DNA of 23,669 bases from a virus: the IMG/VR virus record IMGVR_UViG_3300031977_000966, positions 1 through 23,669 of that record; one strand, given 5' to 3'. This document shows, one piece after another, positions 3,669-23,364 of this stretch. Position 1 is the first letter of the stretch. Every line of letters starts with the position of its first letter. Made by a program: the position numbers and the translations under genes. Under the pieces are notes generated by a model. That model worked only from the letters and a program-made list of their open reading frames with translations. It was not told where the DNA came from and ran no database searches.

Positions 3669-4234
3669 CAGAAGTCTACCTCATCTTCAATGGATTCAGT
3701 AACAACATTTGGATCACTAGCTTTATAGCCTTGGGTATTGCCAAACAATGCAGCAACATCCTCAGCGTTCATGTCTCCTGTGTCAACTCCTGCTTCACTG
3801 TTGAGAGACACAATTTGCACACCAACAAGTTTAAGCGTAGTACCATAAGTAACACCATCCTTAAGAATATATGGCTTCTGATAGAACGCGATCTTGACCT
3901 TTGATCCAGAATATACAGGTGTTGATTCATCTGTAACTGGAGTTCCTTCAGTGTCAACAACAGGTGGCTTGTTGGTTTCATTCCAGGAGAACTTGATCTT
4001 GTATTGACCATCAGCTACCTCCTCCCATGGTTCAGGTTTCAATACACTACGCTTAGGGTTCTTGAGTTTAGACTCAGCCCACTTCAGTGTTTCAGTTCGA
4101 TCATCTTCTAGTTTGTCAACTAGCTGCTGACCAACAGTCGTAGCAAGAGAATAACCAAACTTGCTAGGTTTCATCACAGCTTGATAACCTTCAAGGACAA
4201 CAGGCTGTTCAGTTTTAATAATGTTGCGTGGCAT
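3668..4234 (-). CDS. single-stranded DNA-binding protein (T7 gp2.5-like)
   Basis: 188 aa, in the position of T7 gene 2.5 between RNA polymerase and endonuclease I. The centre (SGSKVKIAFYQKPYILKDG, then TTLKLVGVQIVSL) fits the OB-fold core of gp2.5. The C-terminus is acidic and ends IEDEVDF; T7 gp2.5 also ends in an acidic tail with a terminal Phe that binds polymerase and helicase. It coats single-stranded DNA at the fork and coordinates the replisome. The ATG overlaps the RNA polymerase stop by one base (TAATG), and the stop overlaps the hli start. Overall similarity to T7 is weak, so the call rests on tail, core pattern and context. Confidence 0.85.
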   Translation of the reverse strand: MPRNIIKTEQPVVLEGYQAVMKPSKFGYSLATTVGQQLVDKLEDDRTETLKWAESKLKNPKRSVLKPEPWEEVADGQYKIKFSWNETNKPPVVDTEGTPVTDESTPVYSGSKVKIAFYQKPYILKDGVTYGTTLKLVGVQIVSLNSEAGVDTGDMNAEDVAALFGNTQGYKASDPNVVTESIEDEVDF

Positions 4235-6567
4235 TAGCAGAAAAAATAGGTGGATTCAATCACGGATTCTGGGCAGAGATCTCCAATGATCGGCGGTTCA
4301 GTCTCAGCACCTATTTGATCTGCCCATGACTCCAGATAAGAGTTCTCAGCAAATAGATGCATGTAAGTTTGACGGACGATAGTTGATAGCTCAGACATAT
4401 CAGTAGCACGACACAAAACCGAATCATGTATTAGTGAGATCGGTGCATCGAATCGTAATGCTGAAAGATGCAATAAGCTAGCATCTAGACTATGAATAAG
4501 ATTAGGAGCAGTTGCGTTCTTGTGATGAGCAAGATCTACCTTATCACTATCTTCAGTAGCAATCCTGATCTCAACACGACCCAATAATTGCAACTTAATA
4601 GTTTCAGTAAGCTTCTTGTTAAGCTTCTGAGTGACCACAAAACCTGATGGTGTAACCCACTGAAGTTCTGTTGCTCCTCGCTTGATAGCTTTAGCTACCT
4701 CAGCTTCAATCCATTTCATAGCAGCCATAGGACCTGGAACAACCACGTCCATGGCATCACGTACTGCCTTAACAGTAGCAGTTAGATCATCCTTATCAAC
4801 TTCAATACCTTTCTCAAGTAATGCTTCACGAATGTATCCGCGATTACTATGAGGCTTGGCATTGTATGGGACAGTCATAACAACACGTTTGACTGTCTTC
4901 CTGTCCATGTAGTTCCTTACAGACTCAGGGACGTTTGGTTTAGCGTGCTCGGCGACGACGGCGTAAGCGTCTTGGGGTCGCTCTGCTGGCAGGACATTGA
5001 CAAGACCTGCAGTTCTTGCGTCTCTGCATAATCCGGCGAGTATCTGTAGACCACTGCAGGTGGCATCAGTTGCAACTGGCAGAGAAGTGTAATTTCGATC
5101 ACAGTTAATGACACAATGATAGTACTCATCACATGCTGCTAAGAACTGCCAGGGTTCATCAGCTGCCTCCCAAATAGGAAGATTACCAATAGGATCTTGA
5201 GCGACAGCAGAAATCACCTCATCATTCTCAGCTACCCATTGCATACGTTCATGCATAGGAGCTTTATCAAGACCATAAGTAGTAGCTACTTGAAATGCTA
5301 ACCATTCCTCAGCATATGAGTTCATGAAAGCTTCCTGACTAAACTTTAGTAATGACTTACCAAAGTCCGTGTCCTGTGGTGTAAGAAATGCAGGGATAGG
5401 ATAAGCTCTTCCTCTATAATCAAAAGACCAAGGAATAAAGAACTCATCTTTATCTTTGAACATTCTTACAGCTTCCATTGTCATGCGTGTTCTACATGAC
5501 TTCTTGAAAGATGCTGCATTGAGATTCATAGTCTCAGCAGCCCTTCTCCTGTAGTCTTTACGATTCTCTTTATTGGTCGCAATATCTACAGGTTTAGGTG
5601 GAAGAGGTACCTCCACAATAGGAACAAACTTACCAACTTGATAACCTCGTTCTAGTAAAGTCTCAGCGACTCCTACTATAAACGGATTAAGTCGATAACC
5701 AACCTTCTGAATCTTATTCAGGAATTGGTATGGTGTTTCTCCCTGTATTAATCCGACACCGCGACGAACCATGTCGTGGCCTCGCATTACCTCATTCAAA
5801 AGATAACCACCAGATCGATTTTCAGACCAATCATTAGGCTCAATCAACATCGGATAAGCAATTGGACTGAATAACTCTGCAGTAGCCATTACCTCGTCCT
5901 TGATTGACATGAACTCAGGCGTAGGTACTACATAGTTAGATTTCTTACGTCCATCAGATGTCGTGATGATTGTGAACCAACCACAAGATTCCATAATGCA
6001 ATCTAATAGCCAGCCACCTAATCGAATCTTATTTGTTATGTGCCATGGTGTCCATTGTGGTACATCATAACGTTGAATCAGTGTTCGTACAATGACAAAC
6101 TTCTGATGTGTTCCTGTTGTGTTGTGCCAATAATTTTTCTTAATCGTTTCAAGTAACCCAGGACAATTCTTCTCATAGAACTGCATCTGTGCTTCTTGCT
6201 CAATAGCAACACCAATAGCTTTGGTGATGTCCTGTAGTTTATTGGCATCCTTAACAGCAAATACTTTGTCAAAGATAATCTTTAACGCAATTGCTGCTGC
6301 TGCACTTGAATCGATTGGCTCCAAGAATTCATGGATCTCCTTGAAAGCTCTTCCTGTTTTACCTTCTCGAATTCGCTTGTTGGTTCCTTCAATCCGTCTG
6401 GTAACCAAAGGCAAAAGAGTAGAAATGCTACTGCAGCCATATACAGTTGCAGATGCATAGGTTTTCTCCTCCAAGTCCTTTGTGTTCTTACGTAATCGCT
6501 CAAGTCCATGACGAATAGCTTCTCGCTCAAACTTTACTTGTGCCTCAATTTGTGCAGGTGTTGCCAA
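4234..6567 (-). CDS. T7-type single-subunit DNA-directed RNA polymerase (gp1-like)
   Basis: 777 aa (T7: 883). This phage polymerase transcribes middle and late genes after takeover. Visible: PWSFDYRGRAYP (379-390), catalytic Asp501 in PVATDATCSGLQ, the O-helix R556-x3-K560 with Y568 (VVMTVPYNA), PNLIHSLDASLL with H692, and catalytic Asp715 in LIHDSV, aligning with T7 D537, R627, K631, Y639, H784 and D812. The start is TTG: the codon just before it is TGA, and a GAGGAG ribosome site lies 6 nt upstream, so no in-frame upstream start exists. It begins directly after the stop of a 41-aa gene. Residues 270-277 are encoded by a 21-bp stretch found again downstream of terL. Confidence 0.96.
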   Translation of the reverse strand: MATPAQIEAQVKFEREAIRHGLERLRKNTKDLEEKTYASATVYGCSSISTLLPLVTRRIEGTNKRIREGKTGRAFKEIHEFLEPIDSSAAAAIALKIIFDKVFAVKDANKLQDITKAIGVAIEQEAQMQFYEKNCPGLLETIKKNYWHNTTGTHQKFVIVRTLIQRYDVPQWTPWHITNKIRLGGWLLDCIMESCGWFTIITTSDGRKKSNYVVPTPEFMSIKDEVMATAELFSPIAYPMLIEPNDWSENRSGGYLLNEVMRGHDMVRRGVGLIQGETPYQFLNKIQKVGYRLNPFIVGVAETLLERGYQVGKFVPIVEVPLPPKPVDIATNKENRKDYRRRAAETMNLNAASFKKSCRTRMTMEAVRMFKDKDEFFIPWSFDYRGRAYPIPAFLTPQDTDFGKSLLKFSQEAFMNSYAEEWLAFQVATTYGLDKAPMHERMQWVAENDEVISAVAQDPIGNLPIWEAADEPWQFLAACDEYYHCVINCDRNYTSLPVATDATCSGLQILAGLCRDARTAGLVNVLPAERPQDAYAVVAEHAKPNVPESVRNYMDRKTVKRVVMTVPYNAKPHSNRGYIREALLEKGIEVDKDDLTATVKAVRDAMDVVVPGPMAAMKWIEAEVAKAIKRGATELQWVTPSGFVVTQKLNKKLTETIKLQLLGRVEIRIATEDSDKVDLAHHKNATAPNLIHSLDASLLHLSALRFDAPISLIHDSVLCRATDMSELSTIVRQTYMHLFAENSYLESWADQIGAETEPPIIGDLCPESVIESTYFFC
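5738..5758 (-). repeat. 21-bp segment inside RNA polymerase gene shared with terL-thyX gap
   Basis: Coding copy of the duplicated segment (residues G270 to E277, reading GVGLIQGE). The exact partner is at 10659-10679. Confidence 0.8.
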
Positions 6568-6579
6568 TCAATGCTCCTC
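6565..6579 (-). promoter_or_regulatory. ribosome binding site and TTG start of RNA polymerase
   Basis: On the minus strand GAGGAG (6579-6574), a 6-nt spacer and TTG (6567-6565). The spacer contains the TGA of the upstream 41-aa gene, so termination and initiation touch. The in-frame stop fixes this TTG as the earliest possible start. Confidence 0.75.
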
Positions 6580-6693
6580 GATAGTGTTCTCAAACCAATA
6601 GTCAAGTGCCTCTCGGCTGAAGTCATAGCATTGCTCCATCTCTGGATGCTCATCAATGAACTCCTTGTACTCTTCAATCGTGATCAGACTCAT
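6568..6693 (-). CDS. 41-aa acidic early protein upstream of RNA polymerase
   Basis: A short ORF beginning MSLITIEEYKEF and ending FENTIEEH, rich in Glu and aromatic residues and predicted soluble. Function unknown. It overlaps the end of the 105-aa gene by 20 nt, and its TGA is immediately followed by the TTG start of RNA polymerase, whose GAGGAG ribosome site lies inside this ORF. This placement suggests that its translation is coupled to polymerase synthesis, so it may act as a translational leader as well as a protein. Only position, reading frame and spacing support it. Confidence 0.6.
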   Translation of the reverse strand: MSLITIEEYKEFIDEHPEMEQCYDFSREALDYWFENTIEEH

Positions 6694-6991
6694 CGTAAAT
6701 GCCTCGTTTTAATAGGTGGATAGAATCAGCATTGCAGATAGTGACCTCATAGTCACCATCCTGTATGTACCGTAGCAGCCTGTTCTGTGCTGCTTTGGGT
6801 TGCTGGTAAACATGCTCCTTCACTTTACCAGTCTTCGTGTTCTCAGCCCGTAGAATACATGACACAGAAGCAGGAATCTCCCATGCACATACTCTCCAAT
6901 CATGGAACTCCTCCCAAGTACATGAATCAAACATCTCATCAGGTGCATCCTGAATAGCTTCCCAGTTGTTTGGGTAGTACTTACCACTCAT
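6674..6991 (-). CDS. conserved cyanophage early protein, 105 aa, unknown function
   Basis: Begins MSGKYYPNNWEAIQDAPDEMF. It has an aromatic, acidic N-terminal half (WEEFHDWRVCAWEIP), then SCILRAENTKTGKVKEHVYQ and a basic patch (PKAAQNRLLRYI). This resembles small early proteins I recall from other cyanophages, but I know no tested function. ATG at 6991 is chosen; a GTG sits one codon upstream. It overlaps the preceding 60-aa gene by 11 nt. No membrane segment or metal site is visible. The T7 parallel for this zone is small proteins that bind and redirect host enzymes, so a host-takeover role is possible but unproven. Confidence 0.8.
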   Translation of the reverse strand: MSGKYYPNNWEAIQDAPDEMFDSCTWEEFHDWRVCAWEIPASVSCILRAENTKTGKVKEHVYQQPKAAQNRLLRYIQDGDYEVTICNADSIHLLKRGIYDESDHD

Positions 6992-7163
6992 CACACATCC
7001 TCACGTCCTTAAGTGTACAATTGCGCTGTGTGGATAGCTCCATAGCAGACCATGCAGCCTGCTCACTGTTGGGAGCTACGACGTACGTGATATGTAGGTC
7101 GCCAGCTTGGTCCTCAAGAAGGACCTCATAGTCATCATAACGTGTTTTTCCTAGGAGTGGCAT
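6981..7163 (-). CDS. 60-aa early protein, unknown function
   Basis: Begins MPLLGKTRYDDYEVLLED. The strand-like stretch LHITYVVAPNS is followed by a helix-like EQAAWSAMELSTQRN and the end KDVRMCDEW, suggesting a small alpha/beta protein. The ATG at 7163 is chosen because AAAAGGAAA lies a few bases upstream, one of the few clear ribosome sites in this cluster; a further ATG at 7193 would add ten residues. It overlaps the 46-aa basic gene by 29 nt and the 105-aa gene by 11 nt. Function not recognised. Confidence 0.75.
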   Translation of the reverse strand: MPLLGKTRYDDYEVLLEDQAGDLHITYVVAPNSEQAAWSAMELSTQRNCTLKDVRMCDEW

Positions 7164-7275
7164 GGAGTTTCCTTTTGAGTGATTGAAGTGCATCCCTGCG
7201 TGAACGCATAGCCTGTGGTTTTAACTTACGCTTTACATCTTTCTTACTGTGATGTTGCCAGTTTGGTGTTGTCAT
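7135..7275 (-). CDS. 46-aa strongly basic early protein
   Basis: Starts MTTPNWQHHSKKDVKRK and ends LHATPRKNTL. It is very rich in Lys, Arg and His and nearly free of acidic residues, so it should be cationic and may bind nucleic acid or an acidic host protein. It overlaps the upstream 39-aa gene in an ATGA arrangement (start 7275, upstream stop 7274-7272) and runs 29 nt into the following gene. Support is the continuous frame, the tight coupling and the biased composition. Confidence 0.6.
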   Translation of the reverse strand: MTTPNWQHHSKKDVKRKLKPQAMRSRRDALQSLKRKLHATPRKNTL

Positions 7276-7391
7276 CTCTTCCCATAATAACGTGCACTGA
7301 TTGACCGCGTCCGTGTGATGATTGTGAACGTTGACAGTAATCCTACCATGCCAATGATAGCAAGGATGATGTTAGTTTCAGACCAGATCAT
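7272..7391 (-). CDS. 39-aa small membrane protein
   Basis: Starts MIWSETNIILAIIG and ends ARYYGKR. Residues about 7-26 form one hydrophobic segment (NIILAIIGMVGLLSTFTII), followed by a basic tail, so it is probably a single-pass inner-membrane protein with its C-terminus inside. Its ATG overlaps the upstream stop (TAATG), and its TGA overlaps the next ATG (ATGA), so it sits in a chain of coupled frames. A holin-like or exclusion role cannot be told from sequence; its early location argues against a lysis gene. Confidence 0.6.
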   Translation of the reverse strand: MIWSETNIILAIIGMVGLLSTFTIITRTRSISARYYGKR

Positions 7392-7570
7392 TAGTTGATA
7401 CGTGTGAATGTGTTGTCAGTGTTGGCATTATAAATAATACCATTCACGTCCTTGAAGATACATTGCCAATGTCCAATAGGTAACTTACATTGAGCAGCAA
7501 GTTGTGTATCTCCAGACATAGTAATCATACGATGGTATGAATCTATGTCCTTGAAGATGTAGTCAGTCAT
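7391..7570 (-). CDS. 59-aa early protein, unknown function
   Basis: Starts MTDYIFKDIDSYHRM; a second copy of the local pattern appears as CIFKDVNGIIYNAN. The short internal repeat (IFKD[IV][DN]) suggests a small beta-rich protein. The start overlaps the stop of the 57-aa gene in ATGA and its own stop overlaps the next ATG in TAATG. Not recognised as a named family. Confidence 0.65.
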   Translation of the reverse strand: MTDYIFKDIDSYHRMITMSGDTQLAAQCKLPIGHWQCIFKDVNGIIYNANTDNTFTRIN

Positions 7571-7740
7571 TCGTGATCGTCACTGAACTCTTCAATACAA
7601 GACAGGTATGCGTACATGTATTGATGAAACCTTGGATAAACAACACTCTTGTTGTTGTCATCCCATGCATGTTCATGCGCGTCATTCAATGAATCATACC
7701 AGTTGTCCACGTTCTCGTGGAGTTGTGTGTAGTCAGACAT
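7567..7740 (-). CDS. 57-aa acidic early protein, unknown function
   Basis: Starts MSDYTQLHENVDNWYDS and ends IEEFSDDHE. It is rich in Asp, Glu, His and aromatic residues, without hydrophobic runs, and probably soluble and helical. The ATG overlaps the upstream TGA by one base (TGATG) and the stop overlaps the next start (ATGA). Recognised only as part of the coupled chain of early genes. Confidence 0.65.
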   Translation of the reverse strand: MSDYTQLHENVDNWYDSLNDAHEHAWDDNNKSVVYPRFHQYMYAYLSCIEEFSDDHE

Positions 7741-7889
7741 CAGTTAACCTCCTTGATTTGTTCGATAGTGTGACTTGGAAACTCAGCATGGATATGATCA
7801 ATAAGATCATCCATGTCCTTGCAATCTTCAACTGTTGCAAACGTTAATTTGTTTGTCCAGTTGTCTTCAAGAATTACATTGAATGTCAT
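7740..7889 (-). CDS. 49-aa early protein with structured leader
   Basis: Starts MTFNVILEDNWTNKLTF and ends HTIEQIKEVN; acidic, with a beta-hairpin-like front and a helical back (DCKDMDDLIDHIHAEF). The frame is open further upstream to a TTG, but ATG 7889 is preferred because the intervening bases form two hairpins and an ACTTTC stretch like the leaders of neighbouring genes. No Shine-Dalgarno site is present. The next gene starts in its stop codon. Function unknown. Confidence 0.65.
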   Translation of the reverse strand: MTFNVILEDNWTNKLTFATVEDCKDMDDLIDHIHAEFPSHTIEQIKEVN

Positions 7890-7902
7890 TGTGAGAAAGT
7901 AA

Positions 7903-7949
7903 ACCTCTCTCATTGAGAGGTAATAGGTAAGCCAGGCATTGCACCTGGC
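7903..7949 (-). promoter_or_regulatory. double-hairpin leader of the 49-aa gene
   Basis: Two perfect stem-loops 9 nt apart: GCCAGG/CCTGGC (7931-7936 with 7944-7949, loop CATTGCA on the plus strand) and ACCTCTC/GAGAGGT (7903-7909 with 7915-7921, 5-nt loop). The second ends 13 nt before ATG 7889, and the spacer carries GTTTACTTTC. The first hairpin shares its loop and five of six stem pairs with 8340-8358. Confidence 0.6.
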
Positions 7950-7981
7950 ATGGAGGCTTGAACCTATACCTGAATGTACAA

Positions 7982-8290
7982 TCAAGCGCAGGTATCAACT
8001 GCAAGCTGTGCATAGTTCTCGATGAACCACCAAGTACACCAGTTCTGGATGGATTGAATTGTGTCCATGCCAGCATCTAGTGCGGCCTTGATAATGTTCT
8101 CACCGAAGATGAGCTTGAAATCATCATGAATTCGTTCCCAATACTGGTCATAGAATTCAATCGTGTCTTTGTAGTAGATGTGAGCATGAGCACAACCAGA
8201 TTCACAGCCGTATTCGGCTATGTCCTTGAGTGCGTCCATGTCATACGTGTCGCACAGGTAATCATGTGCGTCAGCGTTGTAGATGGTCAT
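7982..8290 (-). CDS. conserved phage protein with GCxSGxAxxxIYYxDT motif, 102 aa
   Basis: Starts MTIYNADAHDYLCDTYDMD. The signature GCESGCAHAHIYYKDTIEFYDQY resembles a widespread family of small phage proteins with a conserved IYY-x-DT-x2-FYD core followed by two helices; the end (IQNWCTWWFIENYAQLA) fits that family's last helix. Function unknown. ATG 8290 is chosen over the upstream GTG at 8353 because the longer form would translate through two perfect hairpins. There is no Shine-Dalgarno site; the leader carries AATTGTTCACTTT, also found before the 90-aa gene. Confidence 0.78.
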   Translation of the reverse strand: MTIYNADAHDYLCDTYDMDALKDIAEYGCESGCAHAHIYYKDTIEFYDQYWERIHDDFKLIFGENIIKAALDAGMDTIQSIQNWCTWWFIENYAQLAVDTCA

Positions 8291-8300
8291 GTGTAATACG

Positions 8301-8358
8301 AAAGTGAACAATTTGACACTAAAGTGTGTCAAGACACAGGCTAGGCATTGCACCTAGC
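8301..8358 (-). promoter_or_regulatory. double-hairpin leader of the 102-aa gene
   Basis: Stem-loop GCTAGG/CCTAGC (8340-8345 with 8353-8358, plus-strand loop CATTGCA) and stem-loop TTGACAC/GTGTCAA (8313-8319 with 8326-8332), 7 nt apart. They are followed on the minus strand by AATTGTTCACTTT (8313-8301) and ATG at 8290. The upstream stem differs from the copy at 7931-7949 by one compensated base pair. Confidence 0.6.
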
Positions 8359-8389
8359 TGCAAGCTTTTACTTAGCTGTGTTGTATTTA

Positions 8390-8539
8390 TTAATCCACGT
8401 CCTTGTAGACGTAGTCACAGTATGCATTGGGCATACGATCACTCAATGCATCCACTGCATTGCAAGCATCATCCTCATCATGATGACGTGAGGTGAGCAT
8501 GTACTCACCATCATTGGTGAGATAGTAAACGTGAAACAT
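8390..8539 (-). CDS. 49-aa early protein, unknown function
   Basis: Starts MFHVYYLTNDGEYMLTSR, then an acidic helix (HHDEDDACNAVDALSDRM) and the end YCDYVYKDVD. This looks like a small beta-beta-alpha-beta protein. The ending resembles the KDV segments of the neighbouring small genes, hinting at a shared fold or duplication. The leader on the minus strand contains ATTGTCCTTT, related to the AATTGTTCACTTT of two other genes, and lacks a ribosome site. Confidence 0.65.
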   Translation of the reverse strand: MFHVYYLTNDGEYMLTSRHHDEDDACNAVDALSDRMPNAYCDYVYKDVD

Positions 8540-8588
8540 AGTTAGTTAGTATAGAGAATAAAGGACAATTGATCAGTTGTTAATCAGC

Positions 8589-8861
8589 TCAGTAAGCAAG
8601 ATTAACTTGATTAGCAGTGCCAAACTTGGCGCACTTGCTATCAACAAACAACAGGCAATCATTGATCCAACGACCAAGGCTGATGTTGTCGTTCATCACA
8701 AGGTTGAGCAATGCACGACGAGACACGTTGGTGTACAGGTAACCACGTCCATTCTGATAGCGGACAAAGGCAGTACCTTCCTTGACGTTAGCAATGATGT
8801 AATCAGCACAGTCACTGTGACCGTGACGAACCATGATGTTGTCGAACAGTTTGTCGAACAT
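8589..8861 (-). CDS. KTSC-like small protein, first gene of the early cluster, 90 aa
   Basis: Starts MFDKLFDNIMVRHGHSD. The segment AFVRYQNGRGYLYTNVSRR, then ALLNLVMNDNISLGRWIND, follows the pattern of KTSC-type domains (a strand with NG, a Y-x-Y strand, then a helix and S-x-G). KTSC domains occur in phages and near nucleic acid enzymes, but their role is unknown. ATG 8861 is preferred over an upstream TTG at 8885, which lies inside the shared leader motif. This is the first gene after the long noncoding region, so probably one of the first expressed. Confidence 0.7.
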   Translation of the reverse strand: MFDKLFDNIMVRHGHSDCADYIIANVKEGTAFVRYQNGRGYLYTNVSRRALLNLVMNDNISLGRWINDCLLFVDSKCAKFGTANQVNLAY

Positions 8862-8874
8862 AATGAATGAAAGT

Positions 8875-8933
8875 AAAGTGAACAATTGACGACCGTGATG
8901 TCGTCAGACCACGCTCACCCAGTCGAAGGTGAG
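8875..8933 (-). promoter_or_regulatory. double-hairpin leader of the 90-aa gene
   Basis: Stem-loop CTCACC/GGTGAG (8914-8919 with 8928-8933), 7 nt, then stem-loop TGACGAC/GTCGTCA (8887-8893 with 8900-8906). These are followed on the minus strand by AATTGTTCACTTT (8887-8875) and ATG at 8861. The architecture and the 13-nt motif match the leader at 8301-8358. Confidence 0.6.
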
Positions 8934-9236
8934 TCCACAGCTGGCTGTGTCGTGGTGTGCATGAGCAATCTAGCCTGTGCATCGGCATCCAGCATAGCTG
9001 GTACTGCGGTTGTCGTGAGTGTATCCAACCAAGCTGTGCTTGGAAGCCCAATCGCCGGGCAAGGTAACGTCAGTGACGCAGTCAGTTCAGTTGTCAAGGT
9101 TCGATAACCATCATTGCCTGGATGGTGGCAGGTTGTCAAGGAGGTTGTGCAGCTTTGCTGGTTGGCACAGTGCCGAAGCGGCAGCTCAGCTTATTCGGTT
9201 GTCGGTTGGTCTCATCTCTTCTGGTTGAAGTTTCGA

Positions 9237-9275
9237 GACTCTCCTCACCCTTTCAGGGAGAGTCGAGATACTCTC
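9237..9275. other. strong stem-loop with alternative pairing arm
   Basis: GACTCTCC (9237-9244) pairs perfectly with GGAGAGTC (9257-9264). GAGAGT (9258-9263) can instead pair with ACTCTC (9270-9275). The two folds exclude each other, as in attenuator-like switches. No T run follows on either strand. Confidence 0.5.
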
Positions 9276-9300
9276 AACATCAAAGAAGAGTATGGTCTGA

Positions 9301-9376
9301 TGGTAGCAGCGGTTGGATCGGGCTGAGTGTATCAAGCTGTACCATCATTGGTCAAAGCCTAGTGGTAGCAACGGTT
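9301..9376. repeat. 14-bp direct repeat pair TGGTAGCARCGGTT
   Basis: Copies at 9301-9314 and 9363-9376 with one mismatch, start to start 62 bp. They lie in the presumed chromosome-end region, where T7 relatives also carry short repeats. Confidence 0.5.
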
Positions 9377-9567
9377 ATTAGCCTTGCTTATGTAGTGATC
9401 AGCTCTGCTTATCAATGACCAAAAGCCAGTCATACCAATGGATCTCGGCTATCTGTAACATAGTCGGCAGACAGATCACACAATATGCACACCACACAGC
9501 CAGTGCTTAAGTGTTACATACAGTGCGACGTGTTAGATGTACCGGGGCAGGTGCAATCGTGTGTGTT

Positions 9568-9615
9568 ACGGATACCCCACACGGGGTGCAGGGCGTCCGT
9601 CTATTACGTTAATAG
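9568..9615. other. compound hairpins in the end region
   Basis: ACCCC/GGGGT (9574-9578 with 9583-9587) lies inside ACGGA/TCCGT (9568-9572 with 9596-9600). It is directly followed by CTATTA/TAATAG with a 3-nt loop (9601-9615). An AT-rich tract follows on the plus strand to about 9642. Could be structural DNA or RNA; role unknown. Confidence 0.4.
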
Positions 9616-9739
9616 GCTTCTCAAATTTTTGTCATTTTTTATAGCTTACGCCACGATAGCGCAGGCATTCAGTCTTGTACTGCTTAGCTTTGGACTGTTG
9701 CTTAAGAATAAAACGAGTAACGATGTTAGACATGATAGA

Positions 9740-9775
9740 GATAATAAAGACCTAACTCCCGTTCCATAGTTAGGT
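9740..9775 (-). terminator. probable intrinsic terminator downstream of thyX
   Basis: A perfect 8-bp stem ACCTAACT/AGTTAGGT (9750-9757 with 9768-9775) with a 10-nt loop, followed on the minus strand by CTTTATTAT. It starts about 35 nt after the thyX stop and would end the late transcript before the chromosome-end region. The T run is interrupted, so efficiency is uncertain. Confidence 0.5.
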
Positions 9776-9809
9776 ATCATGCGTCCCGAAGGATGAACGT
9801 ACGTTATTA

Positions 9810-10493
9810 TCAATCCCAGACAGCAGAAGCTACTGCAGGGAAGTATTGTTTAACAAGTTGTTGACATTGTTGAGCAATAACCATGTGTTCTTTTTGAGTA
9901 CCATTAGAGATACGCAAATCAATATAATGAATCCAAGATCTAAGATTACCGTGCATATAGAGAGTAGTAGGAGTAGATAGAGGTAATACTTCTCTTGCAC
10001 ATTCTTTAGCTACACCAGCTTGAAGCATCTGTTGATACAGGTGCATAGCTTGGTCATAGTGTTGTTGTAATTGAATTTGGAAGTGTTGTTTTTCTATTGG
10101 ATCAAAGTCATCAATACTATTTTGTCTATTAGATGTATCTTGACTACGAAGATCAGGAATAGAAGGTGTATCAATTACTTGAGCATAACGTTGAGAGAAC
10201 TCTTGAAAGGAGAATGATCTATGTCTAAGAATTTGGGATGCAATAGAGCGTGTGGTATTAATCTTAATACACATGCTTACCATTTCAAAAGGGGACCAAT
10301 GCTTATGATTAATAAGGTATTTAATAAGCTTAGGTGCTGTAGAAGTATTATTTTGATTCTTAGGATTAGATACTCTAGCCATATAAGCTACGAGGTTATC
10401 ACCATCAGGAGTAGAATGAATATACTCAATACTATGCATATTAATAGGGGTGGTAGTAATAAGATTCACAGAGTTGACATTCATCGTCAACAT
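9810..10493 (-). CDS. thyX: FAD-dependent thymidylate synthase ThyX
   Basis: 227 aa. It makes dTMP from dUMP using FAD, methylene-tetrahydrofolate and NADPH. The ThyX signature is RHRSFSFQEFSQRY (90-103), fitting RHRxxSxxExSxRY. HWSPFEMV (65-72) and the C-terminal SWIHYIDLRISNGTQKEH, with the dUMP-binding Arg and the Q-x-E end, also fit the family. The length is usual for phage ThyX. Two or three in-frame ATGs (10493, 10484) are possible starts and neither has a clear ribosome site. It follows terL after a 192-bp hairpin-rich gap. It presumably raises dTTP supply for phage DNA made on an AT-rich template. Confidence 0.95.
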   Translation of the reverse strand: MLTMNVNSVNLITTTPINMHSIEYIHSTPDGDNLVAYMARVSNPKNQNNTSTAPKLIKYLINHKHWSPFEMVSMCIKINTTRSIASQILRHRSFSFQEFSQRYAQVIDTPSIPDLRSQDTSNRQNSIDDFDPIEKQHFQIQLQQHYDQAMHLYQQMLQAGVAKECAREVLPLSTPTTLYMHGNLRSWIHYIDLRISNGTQKEHMVIAQQCQQLVKQYFPAVASAVWD

Positions 10494-10685
10494 TGTGTAT
10501 TTAGATTCAGTAAATTTTGTGTCTTTTAGCCCGGTAGGGCTTTAGGTGGTTCTTACAGAATGTCCGTCTCACTTCGTTCGACCTGGACATTAATAAAGGG
10601 AGTAGGAAGACATCTTTGATGGCTTGTCTACTCCCTACAGGGGAGGTCCACCCTATCCTCTCCCTGTATTAATCCGACATCGGTT
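10494..10685. other. hairpin-tiled intergenic region between terL and thyX
   Basis: Four stem-loops occupy most of the 192 bp: AGCCC/GGGCT (10528-10541); AATGTCC/GGACATT with inner GTC/GAC (10559-10591); a long one with AGGGAGTAG/CTACTCCCT outer stem and AAG/CTT and CATC/GATG inner stems (10597-10636); and ACAGGG-GAGG/CCTC-CCCTGT with one bulge (10637-10667). Two inverted near-copies of ATTAATAnAGGGAG point toward each other (plus strand from about 10589, minus strand from 10673). The right copy belongs to a 21-bp duplication of RNA polymerase sequence. In T7 the corresponding place after gene 19 holds the phiOR promoter. Confidence 0.6.
10659..10679 (-). repeat. 21-bp exact copy of an RNA polymerase gene segment
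   Basis: Identical to 5738-5758, which encodes residues 270-277 of the RNA polymerase, in the same strand orientation; three more bases match with one difference. It lies a few bases past the terL stop. Core on the minus strand: ATTAATACAGGGAGA. Confidence 0.8.
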
Positions 10686-12443
10686 CTAAACCCAGGTAGG
10701 TACTGACTTTTTGTTGTCTAGTTGTCTAGCACGTTGTCTTTGCTCTAAATTCATACCAAATGCCATATGAGATGCTGCAGATTGAGGATCATCAAGCCAA
10801 GCATCCATAAGATCTTTCCAGTCATCACGTTTCCGTTGTTTAACTGTTTCATGAGCAGAAATTGCCATAGCATCTGTAAAGTATTTAACACCTTGTGCTA
10901 AGCAATCTAATCTGTCATCATGTTTTACTGCACCTTTTTCACGGCACATTCTACTCATTTGGTAGAATAACATGTAGAGGAGTCGTTTTTCAGGTGGATC
11001 TTCAGGGTTGGACTTGAAATCCCAGTCAATAACAGAACGATCAACGACAAGGCGATGCTGATTAAGAACAGGTTCAAGTGAATCGATAATTCTGTCTTCT
11101 TTTCTGACATTAGCGCGTACCTCTTCTACGTCAATTGCTTGTTTTGTTTGCTGTAGGTGTTTTTTAAAGAGTTCTGCTACGATACCATCACCAAAGTTAG
11201 TTTCAATTACAAGTTTAGTAACGTTATATTTTTTACAACCTTTTAAAATATCGAGTAATGTTTTGTCGGAGTACCCGTCTCGATAAGCCGACACTTTGTG
11301 CAAGTACAGGAAACCGTTGCGTTGGGAGATATAAGCTGCCGCCGTTTCATCCGTGCCTCTTCCCGACGGATCAACTGAGCAGATTGTTTCGGTGTAAGGT
11401 AACCATTCTCCTTGGAGTTGCATTGGAGAATAGAAATAATCTCCAGGGAGACCAACAGTTGGGAGTTCTTTGATGACATTTTTCGGGTCTGAGCACCAGA
11501 CGACAGAATCAGGGGCAGTAGTAGGATTAACGGAAGTAACCACAAGGTCTGCCATTTTAAGTGGGAATTTTTCTGCATCACTAAGGGAAGTATCTAACAT
11601 GAATTGAAGCATGAAGTTACTACGACCCATAGATGCTTCACGTTCTAGTAGATCATCATTATCAAAACGATCAGGGTCAGTAACATCCCAAATATCAGCA
11701 CCACTATCAATATCAGCTACCAGTTGAGGCGCTAGAAGCCCTTCATATTGACTTACCTTCTTAGGATACCTAGCAGGCCAAACAAAGGGCTTGTAGGACC
11801 TCTCAGCTAGCTTACGATAAACAGTAAAGGTAGTCTGAGGAGTACCCAGATACATAATTCTACTATCATCATTAGGAGTAAGAATAGATTCTGCTTCTGT
11901 GCATAGTTGCAGTAGTTTTTCTCGCATGAGTTCTGTCATGGAGTTACCGGGTACTTCGATATCATCAAGAATCATTAGGTCAGCACGGCTACCAGTAAGT
12001 TGACCAGTGATTCCCACTGATTTAACAGACGGAGCTTGGTGTGGACTGCAATTAACATCGAAAGAAATACGGGACCAACGGGCGTCATCAGATTTAGGAC
12101 GCAGATGAGAAAGCCAAGGTGTTTCAATGATTAGTTTTTGTAGGAAGATTGACATGTTATCTGCACGTTCTTTAGATGCAGATATAATCATTATTTTTTT
12201 CTCAGGATTGTTGAATAGGGTCCAGAGGACAAAAGCACCGGTAATCCAAGATTTACCAACACCTCGAAAAGCTTGAATCTGTAGACGTTTTGGTCCGTTT
12301 TGGAGGTAGTCTGCGATTGCATATTGAGCACGAGTAGGAGATGGTAGGTCTAGTTGATACCATAAAGCCTGAAGAAATATTTTGAAGTCAGTCTTTAAAA
12401 GATCTAAGGTATTCCCTTGCTTTGTCGAGTAATCTTGAGTCAT
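10686..12443 (-). CDS. terL: large terminase subunit (T7 gp19-like)
   Basis: 585 aa, almost exactly the T7 gp19 length (586). It pumps DNA into the prohead and cuts concatemers. ATPase: Walker A AFRGVGKS (58-65), SASKERAD (88-95), Walker B LMILDDIE with D160, D161 and E163, and coupling motif YLGTPQT (198-204). Nuclease: SVDPSGRG with D358, ETNFGDG (414-420) and KHDDRLDCLA with D509, D510 and D513. SVKSVGITGQLTGSRAD is nearly identical to T7. The start ATG lies inside the upstream endonuclease VII-like gene (56-nt overlap) with only a weak AAAG before it, so initiation may depend on coupling. A terminator upstream of the 277-aa gene implies expression by read-through. Confidence 0.97.
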   Translation of the reverse strand: MTQDYSTKQGNTLDLLKTDFKIFLQALWYQLDLPSPTRAQYAIADYLQNGPKRLQIQAFRGVGKSWITGAFVLWTLFNNPEKKIMIISASKERADNMSIFLQKLIIETPWLSHLRPKSDDARWSRISFDVNCSPHQAPSVKSVGITGQLTGSRADLMILDDIEVPGNSMTELMREKLLQLCTEAESILTPNDDSRIMYLGTPQTTFTVYRKLAERSYKPFVWPARYPKKVSQYEGLLAPQLVADIDSGADIWDVTDPDRFDNDDLLEREASMGRSNFMLQFMLDTSLSDAEKFPLKMADLVVTSVNPTTAPDSVVWCSDPKNVIKELPTVGLPGDYFYSPMQLQGEWLPYTETICSVDPSGRGTDETAAAYISQRNGFLYLHKVSAYRDGYSDKTLLDILKGCKKYNVTKLVIETNFGDGIVAELFKKHLQQTKQAIDVEEVRANVRKEDRIIDSLEPVLNQHRLVVDRSVIDWDFKSNPEDPPEKRLLYMLFYQMSRMCREKGAVKHDDRLDCLAQGVKYFTDAMAISAHETVKQRKRDDWKDLMDAWLDDPQSAASHMAFGMNLEQRQRARQLDNKKSVPTWV

Positions 12444-12717
12444 CTTTAAATAAGCCTATAGCACGATTGCACGGGTCACAGAGTAACCCACGGACCTCTC
12501 CGGTTTCGTGGTCGTGATCAACGCACAGGTGGTTAAATCGTTTGTTTGTTTGAGGTAGAGAACATATTTTACATACTCCTCCTTGGTCCTCAAACATATC
12601 ATCATAGTCCTGAATAGTGATACCATATTTGGTATTATACGAGTATTCACGCATACAAGAAGCACAGCGTCCTCTCTGAGGCACTTCTGCGCCACAGGAA
12701 GGGCACTGCTTAGTCAT
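12388..12717 (-). CDS. endonuclease VII-like HNH nuclease
   Basis: 109 aa. An N-terminal zinc ribbon (C5, C8, C18, C21) is followed by an endonuclease VII-type core: YGITIQDYDDMFEDQGG, C49-x2-C52, VDHDHETGEVRGLLC (D67-H70), and C80-x2-C83-N84. The C-terminal helix (DDSRLLDKAREYL) is typical of the family. T4 endonuclease VII resolves branched DNA before packaging, and in several tailed phages an HNH protein beside the terminase is needed for DNA cleavage during packaging. Its overlap with terL suggests such a partnership here. A mobile free-standing HNH gene is the alternative, but the compact fit within the operon argues against recent insertion. Confidence 0.9.
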   Translation of the reverse strand: MTKQCPSCGAEVPQRGRCASCMREYSYNTKYGITIQDYDDMFEDQGGVCKICSLPQTNKRFNHLCVDHDHETGEVRGLLCDPCNRAIGLFKDDSRLLDKAREYLRSFKD

Positions 12718-14317: not shown

Positions 14318-14641
14318 TTATGCTTTAATGTAATTTTCAAGTAGTTGTGTTCTCAACGGATTGTTGAAGCGTTGGATAAAATCCTTCCAGTCTTGACTTC
14401 CTTTGTCTTGATTGCATTGTAAACAGGCGCATACTGTGTTGTTCGTATCTCCACCGCCACGGCAGCGAGGATGGACATGATCAATAGTAAGGTCGTTGAT
14501 GTCATAAGTTTCTCCGCAATAAATGCATGTACAATCAAAATGTTCTTTAATGCCGCGCCTCCAAAGGCGCTTGGCTTCAGAGGATGTCATGGCTATTAGG
14601 TTGTAAAGGTAGTGGTCAGGTGTTGGAAGGAGAGGAGTCAT
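14318..14641 (-). CDS. HNH endonuclease (McrA-like)
   Basis: 107 aa. The HNH core is C39-x2-C42, [18 protein letters not shown] with H55 and N68, then C73-x2-C76-N77 and K80; the cysteines bind a structural zinc and His/Asn form the nicking site. The ATG overlaps the stop of the basic 81-aa gene by one base, so translation starts by coupling; an internal ATG (about residue 18) is also possible. It differs clearly from the endonuclease VII-like protein near terL. Roles could be packaging, host DNA breakdown or homing; its coupled position favours an integrated phage function. Confidence 0.9.
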
Positions 14642-19234: not shown

Positions 19235-22024
19235 TTATTGATTCAGATTAGGGTTCATATTAGCAGGAGATCTCCATGGATTTCCTTGTACAGGTTGAGA
19301 TGCAGCAGAATCAAGAATAGCAGCTTCTTTAGGGTTAGCCTTATCAGTAGGGCCAATCCAAATACCGCGCCAACCAACTTGACGTAAGTATTTTAAAGCC
19401 ATATAATCTTGAACTTCAGGTGTAAACTTAGCATCAAGAGGAATATTTTGCTGTTTGACCTGTTCCATAAATGTAGGGCCAATAAATTGGTAACGACCAG
19501 CAGCATGGAGAGTACCAGCAGCATGGTGACCCATGATTTCACTAATAGTCATGCTAGTAAGAGGTTTACCAAGCAACTTAGTACCAGTACCAGAGTTAAT
19601 AGCTGTTCGTCCTCCGTCTGTACCGCCTTGATTCATACCATCATAACCTAGATCACCTACTTCATACTTAGCCAGGATGTTAAGTGCACTCTTTTGCACA
19701 GGTGAGGCTTGTTGATAAACAGCTTCCTGACCGGCATTCATGACCATAATATCAGTACGGGTAGGGTTAGGCTTATAATTAGCCAAACGACGCGAGAACG
19801 GGTCATACAGAGCGTTTACAGAGGACTCTAGAGCAGTAACTTGATTAGCAATTTCTTCAGGAATAGGTTCTAAATTATGTGCAGCAAGTTGTAGTTGCAA
19901 TGCACGGAAGGATGATAATGTACCACCACTTTGATCAGCAATAAATTGTACAGAAGGTGGCAGTTTAAACTGACCTGTCTGCCTATACTGCTTAACAACA
20001 GCTTCTAGCTGCTCTTTAGGTACTAATTGTTCACGATAAGCAGCTGCTCCTTTGGTCTGCAATGTTTTTGCAATACTAGTAAGAGGAGATGTAATAGGAT
20101 TAACGGGTTCTACAGTTAAATCATACCGACCCATTTGATCTACATCGGTATATGTAATCTTTCCGGTTTTAGGATCCCGTTCAATTCCTAAAACCCTGTA
20201 GCTTCCTTTGGTTTCATCTGTCCCAAAACGCTGCTCAAACCTACCATTAGCATAATCAGCAGCCCTTTGCTGATCATTGAACTGTTGCATACCAACTTTA
20301 AAATCTGCCTGCCATTCACGGACTGCTTTTTTCTTTGCGAGACCAATGGTTGGTGACTTAGCCTTCTGCATTGACGGGAAATACCCAACACGCTCATTAA
20401 TTTTGTCAGACGCATACGATTCAAATTCTTTAACAAGGGAACTAGGTGCTATACTACGGTTAGATTCTTTAGCTTTAGCCAACCACTCTTGTTTAAACTC
20501 AACAGAAACACCTGAAGTCTTCATGATTGTTGTAGCATCAAGTGCTCCATACAGAGTTTGCTCATTCCATAGCTGTTCATATGCTTCTTCTCTCAATGAA
20601 TCCGCTGTATATGAAATAGTAGATTCAATTTCTTCAGCAAGTTTATCCATATTTTGAGCTCTTGCTTGAAGAGCAAGGGATTTCAAATCTTCTCCGGATT
20701 TGTCAACCTTACCATCAATCATATCTTTAGCTCTGCTTTCAACAAAACTGTCGATAAGTTTTAATTCTTGGATTTGTTTTGACTGTCGAAGAGCTTTATA
20801 CTGGTTATCAATAGCATTCTGACGCTCTGCATCAATTGCTTCAAACTCTGCAGCATAACGTGCACCAAGTGTTTTACCTTCTTGATCCTTAAATGAGGTA
20901 TCTTTAATAGCATCAAGTTGCTCTTCAGAAATAGCAAAAGGATCCTTTAGAATTTTAAATGCTTCAGCCCTAGTTGCAGCATGATCACCCTTGTTATGAA
21001 AAAACAAAGTTTGATAGTATCGATGCCAACTATCAGGATCTTTCATCGTCAAGAATCCTTGCTTAGCACTATCAATACGATTGACATTGTTAGCAATGAT
21101 TTCTTCTTGACGTTTTTGACCAATAAAATTATCAAAACCAGCTTTTGCTTTAGTTAAAGACTCTTGTAAAAACTCAACACTAGCATCACCATAACCATTC
21201 TTACGGTAATAATCTGGTAAAAACTTAGCCCAAGCTGAGTTAAGTTGTTGTCTATCAGTTTGATCAATCTGATTTAAAGGGATCTCAGCAAGATTCCCTT
21301 CTTTATCAGGTATTTCAATTAGCAGATCACTGTTTTCAGTAAGTGCTTCTTGAAATGCAGTAGTTGCATCGTTACCAAGCTGCACACTCATGTACCATTT
21401 GGTAGCTTTGAGTGCATGGTCATCCATACTACGCAGATATTCTACCTGCGATTCATCCATACCAGCAGCTTCAGCCGCTGCAGCAAAAGCTTGCTGGTTG
21501 GAACTCATGATGTCTGCATGACGCCAGGAGCGCTTCCAAGCAACAGTGTTTGGATTCATACCAAACAACTGTGCCTTAAGGAGAGCTTGATTCCAACTAG
21601 CTTCTTTTCTTTTTTCTCTTACATCTGCAATAGTTTCTGCAGCTGTTTTACTGACACCAGCTACAAATTCTACCCAGTCATCAACTGTAGGGTCATCACC
21701 TGTAACTGATCCTTTACGTCCAGTGATAGATTCAATAGCACGCTGTTGCCTCTGCAGCTGAGCAACGTATTGATCAGAGATAGCAGAAGCTTGTCTAATG
21801 CGTGATTCTTTAACACTTGTGGACCACTGGTTTTCTTTAGTAAGTTTTTGATCATACTCACTAATGTATTGAGCCATGTATTGGGACTCAAGGTCGCGTA
21901 CTTCCTGTAGTCCTTTGATGTATTGATCTGCTTGTTGCAGAATTCTTTGTGAATCATCGGACATGATAATGGGACGACCAGTATCACCTCCGATGTTTCT
22001 TGCTTGAAAATTTCGTCTTACCAT
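19235..22024 (-). CDS. internal virion protein (T7 gp15-like) with C-terminal lysozyme-like domain
   Basis: 929 aa (T7 gp15: 747). Most of the protein is a long charged helical region (about 20-780), as expected for a core/ejection protein. From about 783 a compact domain follows: ILAKYEVGDLGYDG with E788 as candidate catalytic Glu, GGTDGG, PLTSMTISEIM, GRYQFIGPTF (843-852) and FTPEVQDYMALKYL. This matches the order of lysozyme-like or lytic transglycosylase domains carried on phage virions (Glu, then G-x-YQF). It would cut peptidoglycan locally for genome entry. The gene follows the gp14-like gene by 14 nt and precedes the gp16-like gene by 2 nt. Confidence 0.85.
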   Translation of the reverse strand: MVRRNFQARNIGGDTGRPIIMSDDSQRILQQADQYIKGLQEVRDLESQYMAQYISEYDQKLTKENQWSTSVKESRIRQASAISDQYVAQLQRQQRAIESITGRKGSVTGDDPTVDDWVEFVAGVSKTAAETIADVREKRKEASWNQALLKAQLFGMNPNTVAWKRSWRHADIMSSNQQAFAAAAEAAGMDESQVEYLRSMDDHALKATKWYMSVQLGNDATTAFQEALTENSDLLIEIPDKEGNLAEIPLNQIDQTDRQQLNSAWAKFLPDYYRKNGYGDASVEFLQESLTKAKAGFDNFIGQKRQEEIIANNVNRIDSAKQGFLTMKDPDSWHRYYQTLFFHNKGDHAATRAEAFKILKDPFAISEEQLDAIKDTSFKDQEGKTLGARYAAEFEAIDAERQNAIDNQYKALRQSKQIQELKLIDSFVESRAKDMIDGKVDKSGEDLKSLALQARAQNMDKLAEEIESTISYTADSLREEAYEQLWNEQTLYGALDATTIMKTSGVSVEFKQEWLAKAKESNRSIAPSSLVKEFESYASDKINERVGYFPSMQKAKSPTIGLAKKKAVREWQADFKVGMQQFNDQQRAADYANGRFEQRFGTDETKGSYRVLGIERDPKTGKITYTDVDQMGRYDLTVEPVNPITSPLTSIAKTLQTKGAAAYREQLVPKEQLEAVVKQYRQTGQFKLPPSVQFIADQSGGTLSSFRALQLQLAAHNLEPIPEEIANQVTALESSVNALYDPFSRRLANYKPNPTRTDIMVMNAGQEAVYQQASPVQKSALNILAKYEVGDLGYDGMNQGGTDGGRTAINSGTGTKLLGKPLTSMTISEIMGHHAAGTLHAAGRYQFIGPTFMEQVKQQNIPLDAKFTPEVQDYMALKYLRQVGWRGIWIGPTDKANPKEAAILDSAASQPVQGNPWRSPANMNPNLNQ

Positions 22025-22038
22025 CGTAATGATTAAGA

Positions 22039-23364
22039 TTATTTAAATAATTCGGCACCAAATTTTAATAAAGGAGCAAACGGAGCAGTAGCTCCACCAG
22101 TAAATGGAGCAGCTATAGCAGCAACACCACTAGCAATATTAAGAGCAGTACTTAATCCACTAGGTTGCTGGGGAGAATTATATCCACCACCAATACCAGC
22201 TTTAACGCTTGATTTAGTCTGATAAATAGGTGGTTGAGGTTTGACATACTTAGTCTTAGGAGTTGCATGTGGTTTAGGTAGTGCAGGACCAAATACAGGT
22301 TTTAACATACGCTGTGCATATGCCTGACTTTCTGCTTCAAACTTTTTAGCTTCAATTTCTTCAAGTTTAATTTGAGCAGATTTGCCAGCACTCATCAAAG
22401 ATTCTGCTAGTTTATCTTTGCTAAGTTCAAATTCCTCAGCATCAATACCTAAATTGTCAGCTATATTTTCTTTCCTTGATCTTGCAGCAGCTTTTGTTTG
22501 TCTTTCACCTGCTCCAATTTTAGCTTCTTGCACTCCAAGAGCACCAAGATAAGATGCAGAACCTTCTTTAGCAGTTTTATCACCCAGGATAGATAGTTTT
22601 TCCTTTTTAGTTAATGTCTTCTGTATCTCAAGAGACTGTTCAGCACGGTACAAACTATCATTAAATTTTTGAGTATTTAATCCACTCATAGCAGCAATAG
22701 AGTTCATGACCCTATTAGCACCCCTACCTTTAGTACCACGTGCTTGTGCAGCACCTTTTTGTACAATACTCTCTAGTTGATTGTTGAGTTGATTGTATCT
22801 ATTTTCAGATTGAAGTTTTTTCGCTTCAATGTCAAACTCACCTGCTATCTTTTGTCCTTCTTCATTAATATAACCAAGTTTAGCATCAAACTCTGCCTGC
22901 CGTTGACCCTTTTGAATCTTTAATTCTTTTCTAGATAGATCTGCATTTTCAGTTGCATTATCAATAATCTGTTGCTGTTCTGTATCACCAAACGCAGCAG
23001 CAACCGCTTTCCTTGAGAAGTCTCTATCTAAATCTTCTAGCTGAAATGATAAACTAGCAATTTCTTCGTCAAGGCCAAGCTGTACACGATCTCTTGCAGT
23101 ATCAGCATAAAAACTAATAGACTTTAAATTATCCTGATAAACTTCATTACTACGAATATAAGCATTGGTTTGAGCTTCTTCTTGAGCTGCTTTAGTACCA
23201 GATCTAAATTTGTAATCGTCTAAAGCTGCTTTATCCTTTGTAGTTCGCAGTATTTCTTCTTGAGCTACATTATTTTCCCAATTTTGGAAATCAAGATCAT
23301 ACTGCTGATCTAGTATAGCGTTAGCTCTTCCTGCAGCTTTTTTTAATTTATTTTTTTGGCCCAT
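22039..23364 (-). CDS. internal virion protein (T7 gp14-like)
   Basis: 441 aa, longer than T7 gp14 (196). It is mostly charged coiled coil (about 1-340: LDFQNWENNVAQEE, SLSFQLEDLDRDFSR), then a proline-rich linker (KPHATPKTKYVKPQPP) and a C-terminal hydrophobic Gly/Ala segment (ALNIASGVAAIAAPFTGG), which could enter the outer membrane. T7 gp14 forms the outer-membrane pore during ejection. A strong AGGAGG site (23375-23370) sits 5 nt from the ATG, which overlaps the upstream stop (TAATG). T7 gene 13 has no counterpart between it and the nozzle gene. Confidence 0.82.
   Translation of the reverse strand: MGQKNKLKKAAGRANAILDQQYDLDFQNWENNVAQEEILRTTKDKAALDDYKFRSGTKAAQEEAQTNAYIRSNEVYQDNLKSISFYADTARDRVQLGLDEEIASLSFQLEDLDRDFSRKAVAAAFGDTEQQQIIDNATENADLSRKELKIQKGQRQAEFDAKLGYINEEGQKIAGEFDIEAKKLQSENRYNQLNNQLESIVQKGAAQARGTKGRGANRVMNSIAAMSGLNTQKFNDSLYRAEQSLEIQKTLTKKEKLSILGDKTAKEGSASYLGALGVQEAKIGAGERQTKAAARSRKENIADNLGIDAEEFELSKDKLAESLMSAGKSAQIKLEEIEAKKFEAESQAYAQRMLKPVFGPALPKPHATPKTKYVKPQPPIYQTKSSVKAGIGGGYNSPQQPSGLSTALNIASGVAAIAAPFTGGATAPFAPLLKFGAELFK

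Follow-up and report, generated by a model that had tools for sequence, protein, structure and literature searches.

A matched pair of predicted RNA polymerase promoters, one inside the polymerase gene and one after terL, in a T7-like cyanopodovirus and its relatives

The window (the whole stretch of DNA that was analysed, 23,669 nucleotides) comes from a T7-like cyanopodovirus; among named phages it is closest to T7-like cyanophages of Synechococcus and Prochlorococcus. It carries a short element twice on the minus strand, once within the RNA polymerase (RNAP) gene and once directly after terL, and we are highly confident from the sequence comparisons below that these are two promoters of the phage's own single-subunit RNAP. 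The pair shows up as a 21-nt repeat, TCTCCCTGTATTAATCCGACA, which lies in the same orientation at 5738-5758 and 10659-10679. In the three bases that follow, the copies differ by one change (CCG vs TCG), so that the exact repeat and the near-match beyond it in the original prediction are both borne out by the coordinates and the sequence. Both copies are on the coding (minus) strand, the first in RNAP codons 269-277 (the 21 nt themselves cover residues 270-277) and the second in the gap between terL (end 10686) and thyX (start 10493), and the 23,669-base fragment holds two exact copies of the element. The features that we refer to are as follows.

5747..5761, minus strand: predicted RNAP promoter 1, -15 to -1, CGGTGTCGGATTAAT; inside the RNAP gene, codon 269 (last base only) through codon 274; from the Syn5 position, the matched pairs and covariation with RNAP contact residues
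5738..5746, minus strand: predicted start and initial transcribed bases, ACAGGGAGA; +1 placed at 5746 by Syn5 alignment; ACAGGG near-invariant among relatives
10668..10682, minus strand: predicted RNAP promoter 2, -15 to -1, CGATGTCGGATTAAT; directly after terL; Syn5 equivalent at 44797-44811
10659..10667, minus strand: predicted start and initial transcribed bases, ACAGGGAGA; +1 placed at 10667; also the 5' side of a hairpin
10637..10667, minus strand: stem-loop that opens the predicted post-terL transcript, with the loop motif AGGGTGGA kept in relatives; from folding
10589..10636, minus strand: terminator-like hairpin, then a T-rich stretch; from folding and comparison with relatives
4234..6567, minus strand: single-subunit RNA polymerase gene, containing promoter 1; phrog_414, E 6e-218, and relatives
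10686..12443, minus strand: terL (terminase large subunit), with promoter 2 downstream of it; phrog_38, E 2.2e-119, and relatives
9810..10493, minus strand: thymidylate synthase gene (thyX-like), first gene downstream of promoter 2; phrog_85, E 4.3e-83

The sole difference between the two predicted promoters is at -13. Each would consist of a recognition block that is specific to the lineage, from -15 to about -4, and a conserved start region ending in ACAGGG.

Some other features of the window deserve a mention. A Glutamine-II riboswitch aptamer (RF01704, 47.9 bits, E 1.1e-9) lies at 9750-9802 on the minus strand, just downstream of the thyX-like gene, and two minus-strand ORFs that look like HNH endonucleases when their translations are judged by eye are at 12388-12717 and 14318-14641, one of them overlapping the start of terL. 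The region 8000-9800 has few convincing ORFs on either strand and probably holds early genes, a terminal repeat or regulatory sequence. From 6567 to 12443, the order of terL, thyX, small ORFs and RNAP runs across the ends that a linear T7-like genome map would have; Syn5 has terL close to the right end of its map, RNAP close to the left end and terminal repeats of 237 bp. Because the gene order crosses the ends of the linear map, the contig would come from a concatemer or a circular assembly. Such a map puts just 4.9 kb between the two promoters, so a single exchange could swap both.

Syn5 is the anchor for our reading. Its RNAP promoter, ATTGGGCACCCGTAA, is 15 bp long, was identified experimentally and has its start at the next base, and there are two promoters in the genome, one of them within the RNAP gene (published Syn5 paper). 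When we searched NC_009531 for ATTGGGCACCCGTAA with up to 2 mismatches, it was present only at 4929-4943, which is RNAP codon 270, and at 44797-44811, just after terL. Syn5 and the window are therefore alike in having one promoter near RNAP codon 270 and the other just after terL on the same strand, and in both the promoter covers about 15 bp upstream of the start. They differ in the recognition block (ATTGGGCACCCGTAA vs CGGTGTCGGATTAAT), in the loop of the downstream hairpin (AGTGGTG in Syn5, TAGGGTGGA in the window) and in the polymerases, which are about 36% identical; the promoters of the window are predicted, whereas those of Syn5 were measured. The two-promoter arrangement as such is already known from Syn5. 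The idea in the original prediction of a minus-strand phage promoter with one copy in the RNAP gene and the other at a place like that of T7 phiOR is strongly supported by this anchor, and also by the family-wide pairs and the contact-residue covariation that we describe below.

From promoter 1, RNAP would read out of its own gene in the direction of terL, across the replication and structural genes. Since this promoter is inside the gene, the phage RNAP would presumably make no full message for itself from there. The first bases of the promoter 2 transcript are predicted to fold into a hairpin, and the polymerase would soon meet the terminator-like hairpin, where it may stop or read through. 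According to the Syn5 paper, Syn5 RNAP ignores the T7 terminator in vitro.

The RNA that would start at promoter 2 is predicted to be structured. Its first 80 nt fold with -33.6 kcal/mol (z -4.05). Of 121 loci, 104 have AGGGTGGA at most 260 nt from the stop of terL. In 8 of the 24 named genomes, including Syn5, AGTGGTG is at the equivalent place. In 88 distinct sequences, the three pairs flanking the loop are formed in 95% of cells vs 80% with the 3' sides shuffled (max 84%). RNAalifold, given 65 hairpins, picked an inner GGG/CCC pairing, and the alternative pairings both fit (inner pairs in 81-88 and flanking pairs in 83-84 of the 88 sequences). A terminator-like hairpin comes next in 97/110 relatives vs 9/110 with shuffled bases. 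The Rfam search of the gap gave no family above the gathering score, its only match being a chance-level snoRNA on the other strand (18.1 bits vs a cut-off of 60), and TCCACCC, the complement of the loop, does not occur on the coding strand within the window. This leaves 10589-10667 (minus strand) as a candidate conserved two-hairpin RNA that has no Rfam family and whose loop motif is invariant in most relatives. It may be a small RNA of the phage with its own promoter.

In T7, phiOR lies after the terminase gene and near the genome end, and promoter 2 may likewise also serve the genome-end region. A stronger version of this idea is that the post-terL copy exists mainly for packaging or replication at the genome end, with RNAP only binding there and productive transcription being secondary. 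We consider this unlikely, though it is the alternative that we take most seriously. The position after terL fits it, as does the Syn5 copy, which the 237-bp terminal repeat follows after about 1.2 kb, and the terminator-like hairpin close behind (97/110) speaks for it too. However, it leaves the copy in the RNAP gene unexplained and it still requires a promoter, so it concerns the purpose of promoter 2 and is not a full rival to the reading as two RNAP promoters.

Evidence for two promoters also comes from relatives. We scanned IMG/VR twice and obtained 80 loci with terL and 80 with RNAP. After terL, most loci have a variable block and then TATACAGG or a variant of it, and in the RNAP gene 3-4 hypervariable codons are framed by RRG and IQGE, both conserved (the IQGE codons are ATACAGGGAGA). 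The variable block in the RNAP gene of each genome resembles the block after its own terL, and the longest exact match between the two sites ranges from 26 down to 7 nt among the 56 genomes or contigs holding both. Removing near-duplicates left 51 genomes, for which we compared RNAP residues ~250-300 with the first 150 nt after terL. Own pairs share 17.14 of 18 bases vs 13.11 for permuted pairs (sd 0.17, max 13.80), and 0 of 20,000 permutations reach the observed value; a genome's own element was the best or tied in 44/51 and strictly the best in 34/51. This search after terL in related phages against their own RNAP codons had been proposed with the original prediction, and it returned matched pairs. 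In two held-out genomes, previously unused and with terL and RNAP in separate loci, the element at codon 270 matches over 24 and 21 nt.

We also found the pair at both places in 24/24 named public genomes (23 isolates and one fosmid phage), which contradicts the suggestion that the RNAP-gene copy is fortuitous. Examples are AACCCCTACGTAT-ACAGGGG in P-SSP7 and CATCTGGCCCATGTAA-GCAGGGAGA in S-CBP42. The weakest pairs in named genomes are those of S-B28 (14/18) and DSL-LC07 (15/18), and two of the other genomes or contigs, L062 and L051, have weak pairs as well. There is no further site within 4 mismatches in 18/24 named genomes, and extra sites at 3-4 mismatches are present in S-B28, S-CBP42, P-SSP2, P-SSP3 and P60. 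We rejected the possibility of many T7-type promoters per genome, as whole-genome scans show two strong copies. S-CBP2 (KC310806) has three, the third promoter-like copy being at 16389 with 1 mismatch; the other scanned genomes have two.

Agreement between the copies has sharp edges. Across 50 genomes, the two copies agree in 46 at -15, 50 at -4, 49 at +1 and 47 at +5, and agreement falls to 13/50 at -16 and 25/50 at +7, which puts the extent of the element at about -15 to the start, as in Syn5. The alignment of the copies was chosen on -14 to +3, and the values outside that range are free of the choice and show the same edges. We did not find the RNAP-gene/post-terL pair in T7, KP34, HTVC019P or Vibrio phage 526E57-1, the four genomes in this non-relative comparison, where the longest matches are 10-12 nt; one further genome, G014, whose terL is truncated where the contig stops, gave no result. 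In the open-access literature we found no description of a family-wide pair that is hypervariable yet matched and follows the contact residues, although the JBC 2013 Syn5 paper may discuss other cyanophages.

These results bear on the suggestion that the repeat is a recombination scar or the product of gene conversion, with a piece of RNAP copied behind terL or the reverse and having no function of its own. The copies hardly differ, and it may well be a copying process that keeps them matched, with gene conversion as a possible means. However, the pair is at the same two places in all 24 named genomes with sharp, promoter-sized edges, and a scar leaves unexplained why the blocks differ between genomes and match within each. 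A passive scar would also not covary with the DNA-contact residues of RNAP, so we think a scar without function is very improbable.

That covariation is the third line of evidence for RNAP promoters. We measured it as mutual information with average-product correction between RNAP columns and promoter bases, using an RNAP set with the aligned glutamine in 115/118 sequences, of which 85 were non-redundant, and 483-484 variable columns. The contact set combines the specificity loop, the AT-rich loop and the intercalating hairpin (40 of 483 columns); we take the latter two to be T7 residues 93-101 and 232-242. For the specificity loop, residues 739-770, T7 contacts are given as N748 with -10 and -11, R756 with -9 and Q758 with -8 (PMC5937735). 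The top five RNAP columns are those of T7 240 (with -5), 206 (-4), 756 (-8), 96 (-15) and 748 (-11). Four of the five are in known promoter-contact elements, and T7 206, which ranks second, is outside the predefined contact set. The contact set takes 6/10 top columns (hypergeometric p 3.7e-5). When we slid 136 windows of 15 nt along the RNAP gene, a count of 6 occurred only at codons 270-274, and the other 135 gave 0 (64), 1 (52), 2 (14) or 3 (5). With the post-terL copy as input (46 genomes), the same five columns were at the top and 7/10 top columns were in the contact set.

The associations read almost like a code, with counts that are inflated by shared ancestry. At residue 209 of the window RNAP (T7 240), T/S goes with C at -5 in 54/54 and R/K with T in 28/28; at residue 177 (T7 206), R goes with G at -4 in 54/54; at residue 666 (T7 756), E/D goes with G at -8 in 20/20; at residue 658 (T7 748), E/D goes with C at -11 in 33/34 and K/R with G in 17/20; and at residue 68 (T7 96), E goes with C at -15 in 29/29. 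The signal is weaker in 269 close pairs. T7 206, 754, 96, 233, 758 and 240 are still high there, but only 4/10 top columns are in the contact set and T7 453, outside the set, ranks first.

We also looked at where promoter 1 falls in the protein. In an AlphaFold2 model of the window RNAP (32 sequences, mean pLDDT 77.4), the longest stretch with pLDDT <50 is 258-272, and the hypervariable residues 271-273 that the promoter encodes are at its edge. The same model builds the two recognition hairpins from strands 198-205/208-215 and 650-658/666-677. The model suggests that the promoter inside the gene encodes the edge of a loop that is predicted to be disordered and would tolerate very different residues.

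Pairing at the RNA level was another idea, in which a transcript of the gap acts as an antisense on the RNAP mRNA or as a guide-like RNA targeting the gene. The conserved structured element in the gap speaks for it. A minus-strand transcript, however, is sense to the RNAP mRNA; an antisense would have to come from the plus strand, and we see no sign of such a transcript; both copies are sense to phage genes. In addition, most of the bases in common precede the predicted start, the shared stretch stops near +5, and the covarying residues sit in the DNA-contact elements of RNAP itself. We give this idea very little weight.

A chance repeat or an assembly artefact is practically negligible as an explanation, as the 21-nt pair is the longest direct repeat of the window (300 order-2 Markov simulations of equal length gave 12-17 nt and once 20 nt), matched pairs run throughout the relatives, and a second, independent IMG/VR contig, L002 (99.94% identical over 12,058 nt), holds both copies with the spacing unchanged. 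L001 and L003 have the RNAP copy only; their matches to the window end short of the post-terL site.

The likeness to T7 is partial. T7 and the window have homologous single-subunit RNAPs with a specificity loop that covaries with the promoter, and in each one promoter copy lies after the terminase gene. We take the T7 promoter consensus to be TAATACGACTCACTATAGGGAGA, and by direct reading it is absent at the repeat: TAATAC is followed immediately by AGGGAGA and the intervening block is absent. The AGGGAGA initiation end typical of T7/T3 promoters had been part of the original prediction, and what stands is the conserved ACAGGG at the predicted start, whereas the T7 upstream consensus is missing and the recognition half is lineage-specific. 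T7 also lacks the RNAP-gene/post-terL pair (longest match 10 nt), and it needs about 15 promoters (Syn5 paper). The promoter of Klebsiella phage KP34, TAATGTTACAGGAGTA, resembles that of the window in having few genome sites and a TTACAGG core. Allowing 2 mismatches, its sites are at 475, 22197 and 33721. Unlike in the window, none of them is inside the RNAP match at 19759-22188; the middle one is just past it.

A 2024 study, in which 8/26 enzyme-promoter pairs worked and all 16 enzymes with <30% DNA-binding-domain identity to T7 failed, names promoter prediction as what critically limits the use of new phage polymerases (PMC11475235). The RNAPs of P-SSP7 and S-CBP42 were screened there with software-predicted promoters. 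Those predictions match their own genomes with, at best, 3 (P-SSP7) and 1 (S-CBP42) mismatches, and they are not the pairs that we found. In our own alignment the two enzymes are 23% and 19% identical to T7 residues 1-325, so they were probably among the failures of that screen. We propose a simple rule, that the promoter is the short sequence found both around codon 270 of the RNAP gene and in the post-terL stretch. It yields a testable promoter for each named cyanopodovirus genome that we examined (24/24), together with a residue-base specificity code.

The matched pairs raise an evolutionary question, namely what drives the fast divergence of these promoters and what keeps a protein and two distant copies in step. 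On balance we favor the view that in marine picocyanobacterial podoviruses the RNAP gene holds its own promoter beside a disordered loop, and that promoter and RNAP change jointly and fast by a simple residue-to-base code, which would give each lineage a private transcription address; the second copy would be the dedicated promoter of a short conserved two-hairpin RNA near terL.
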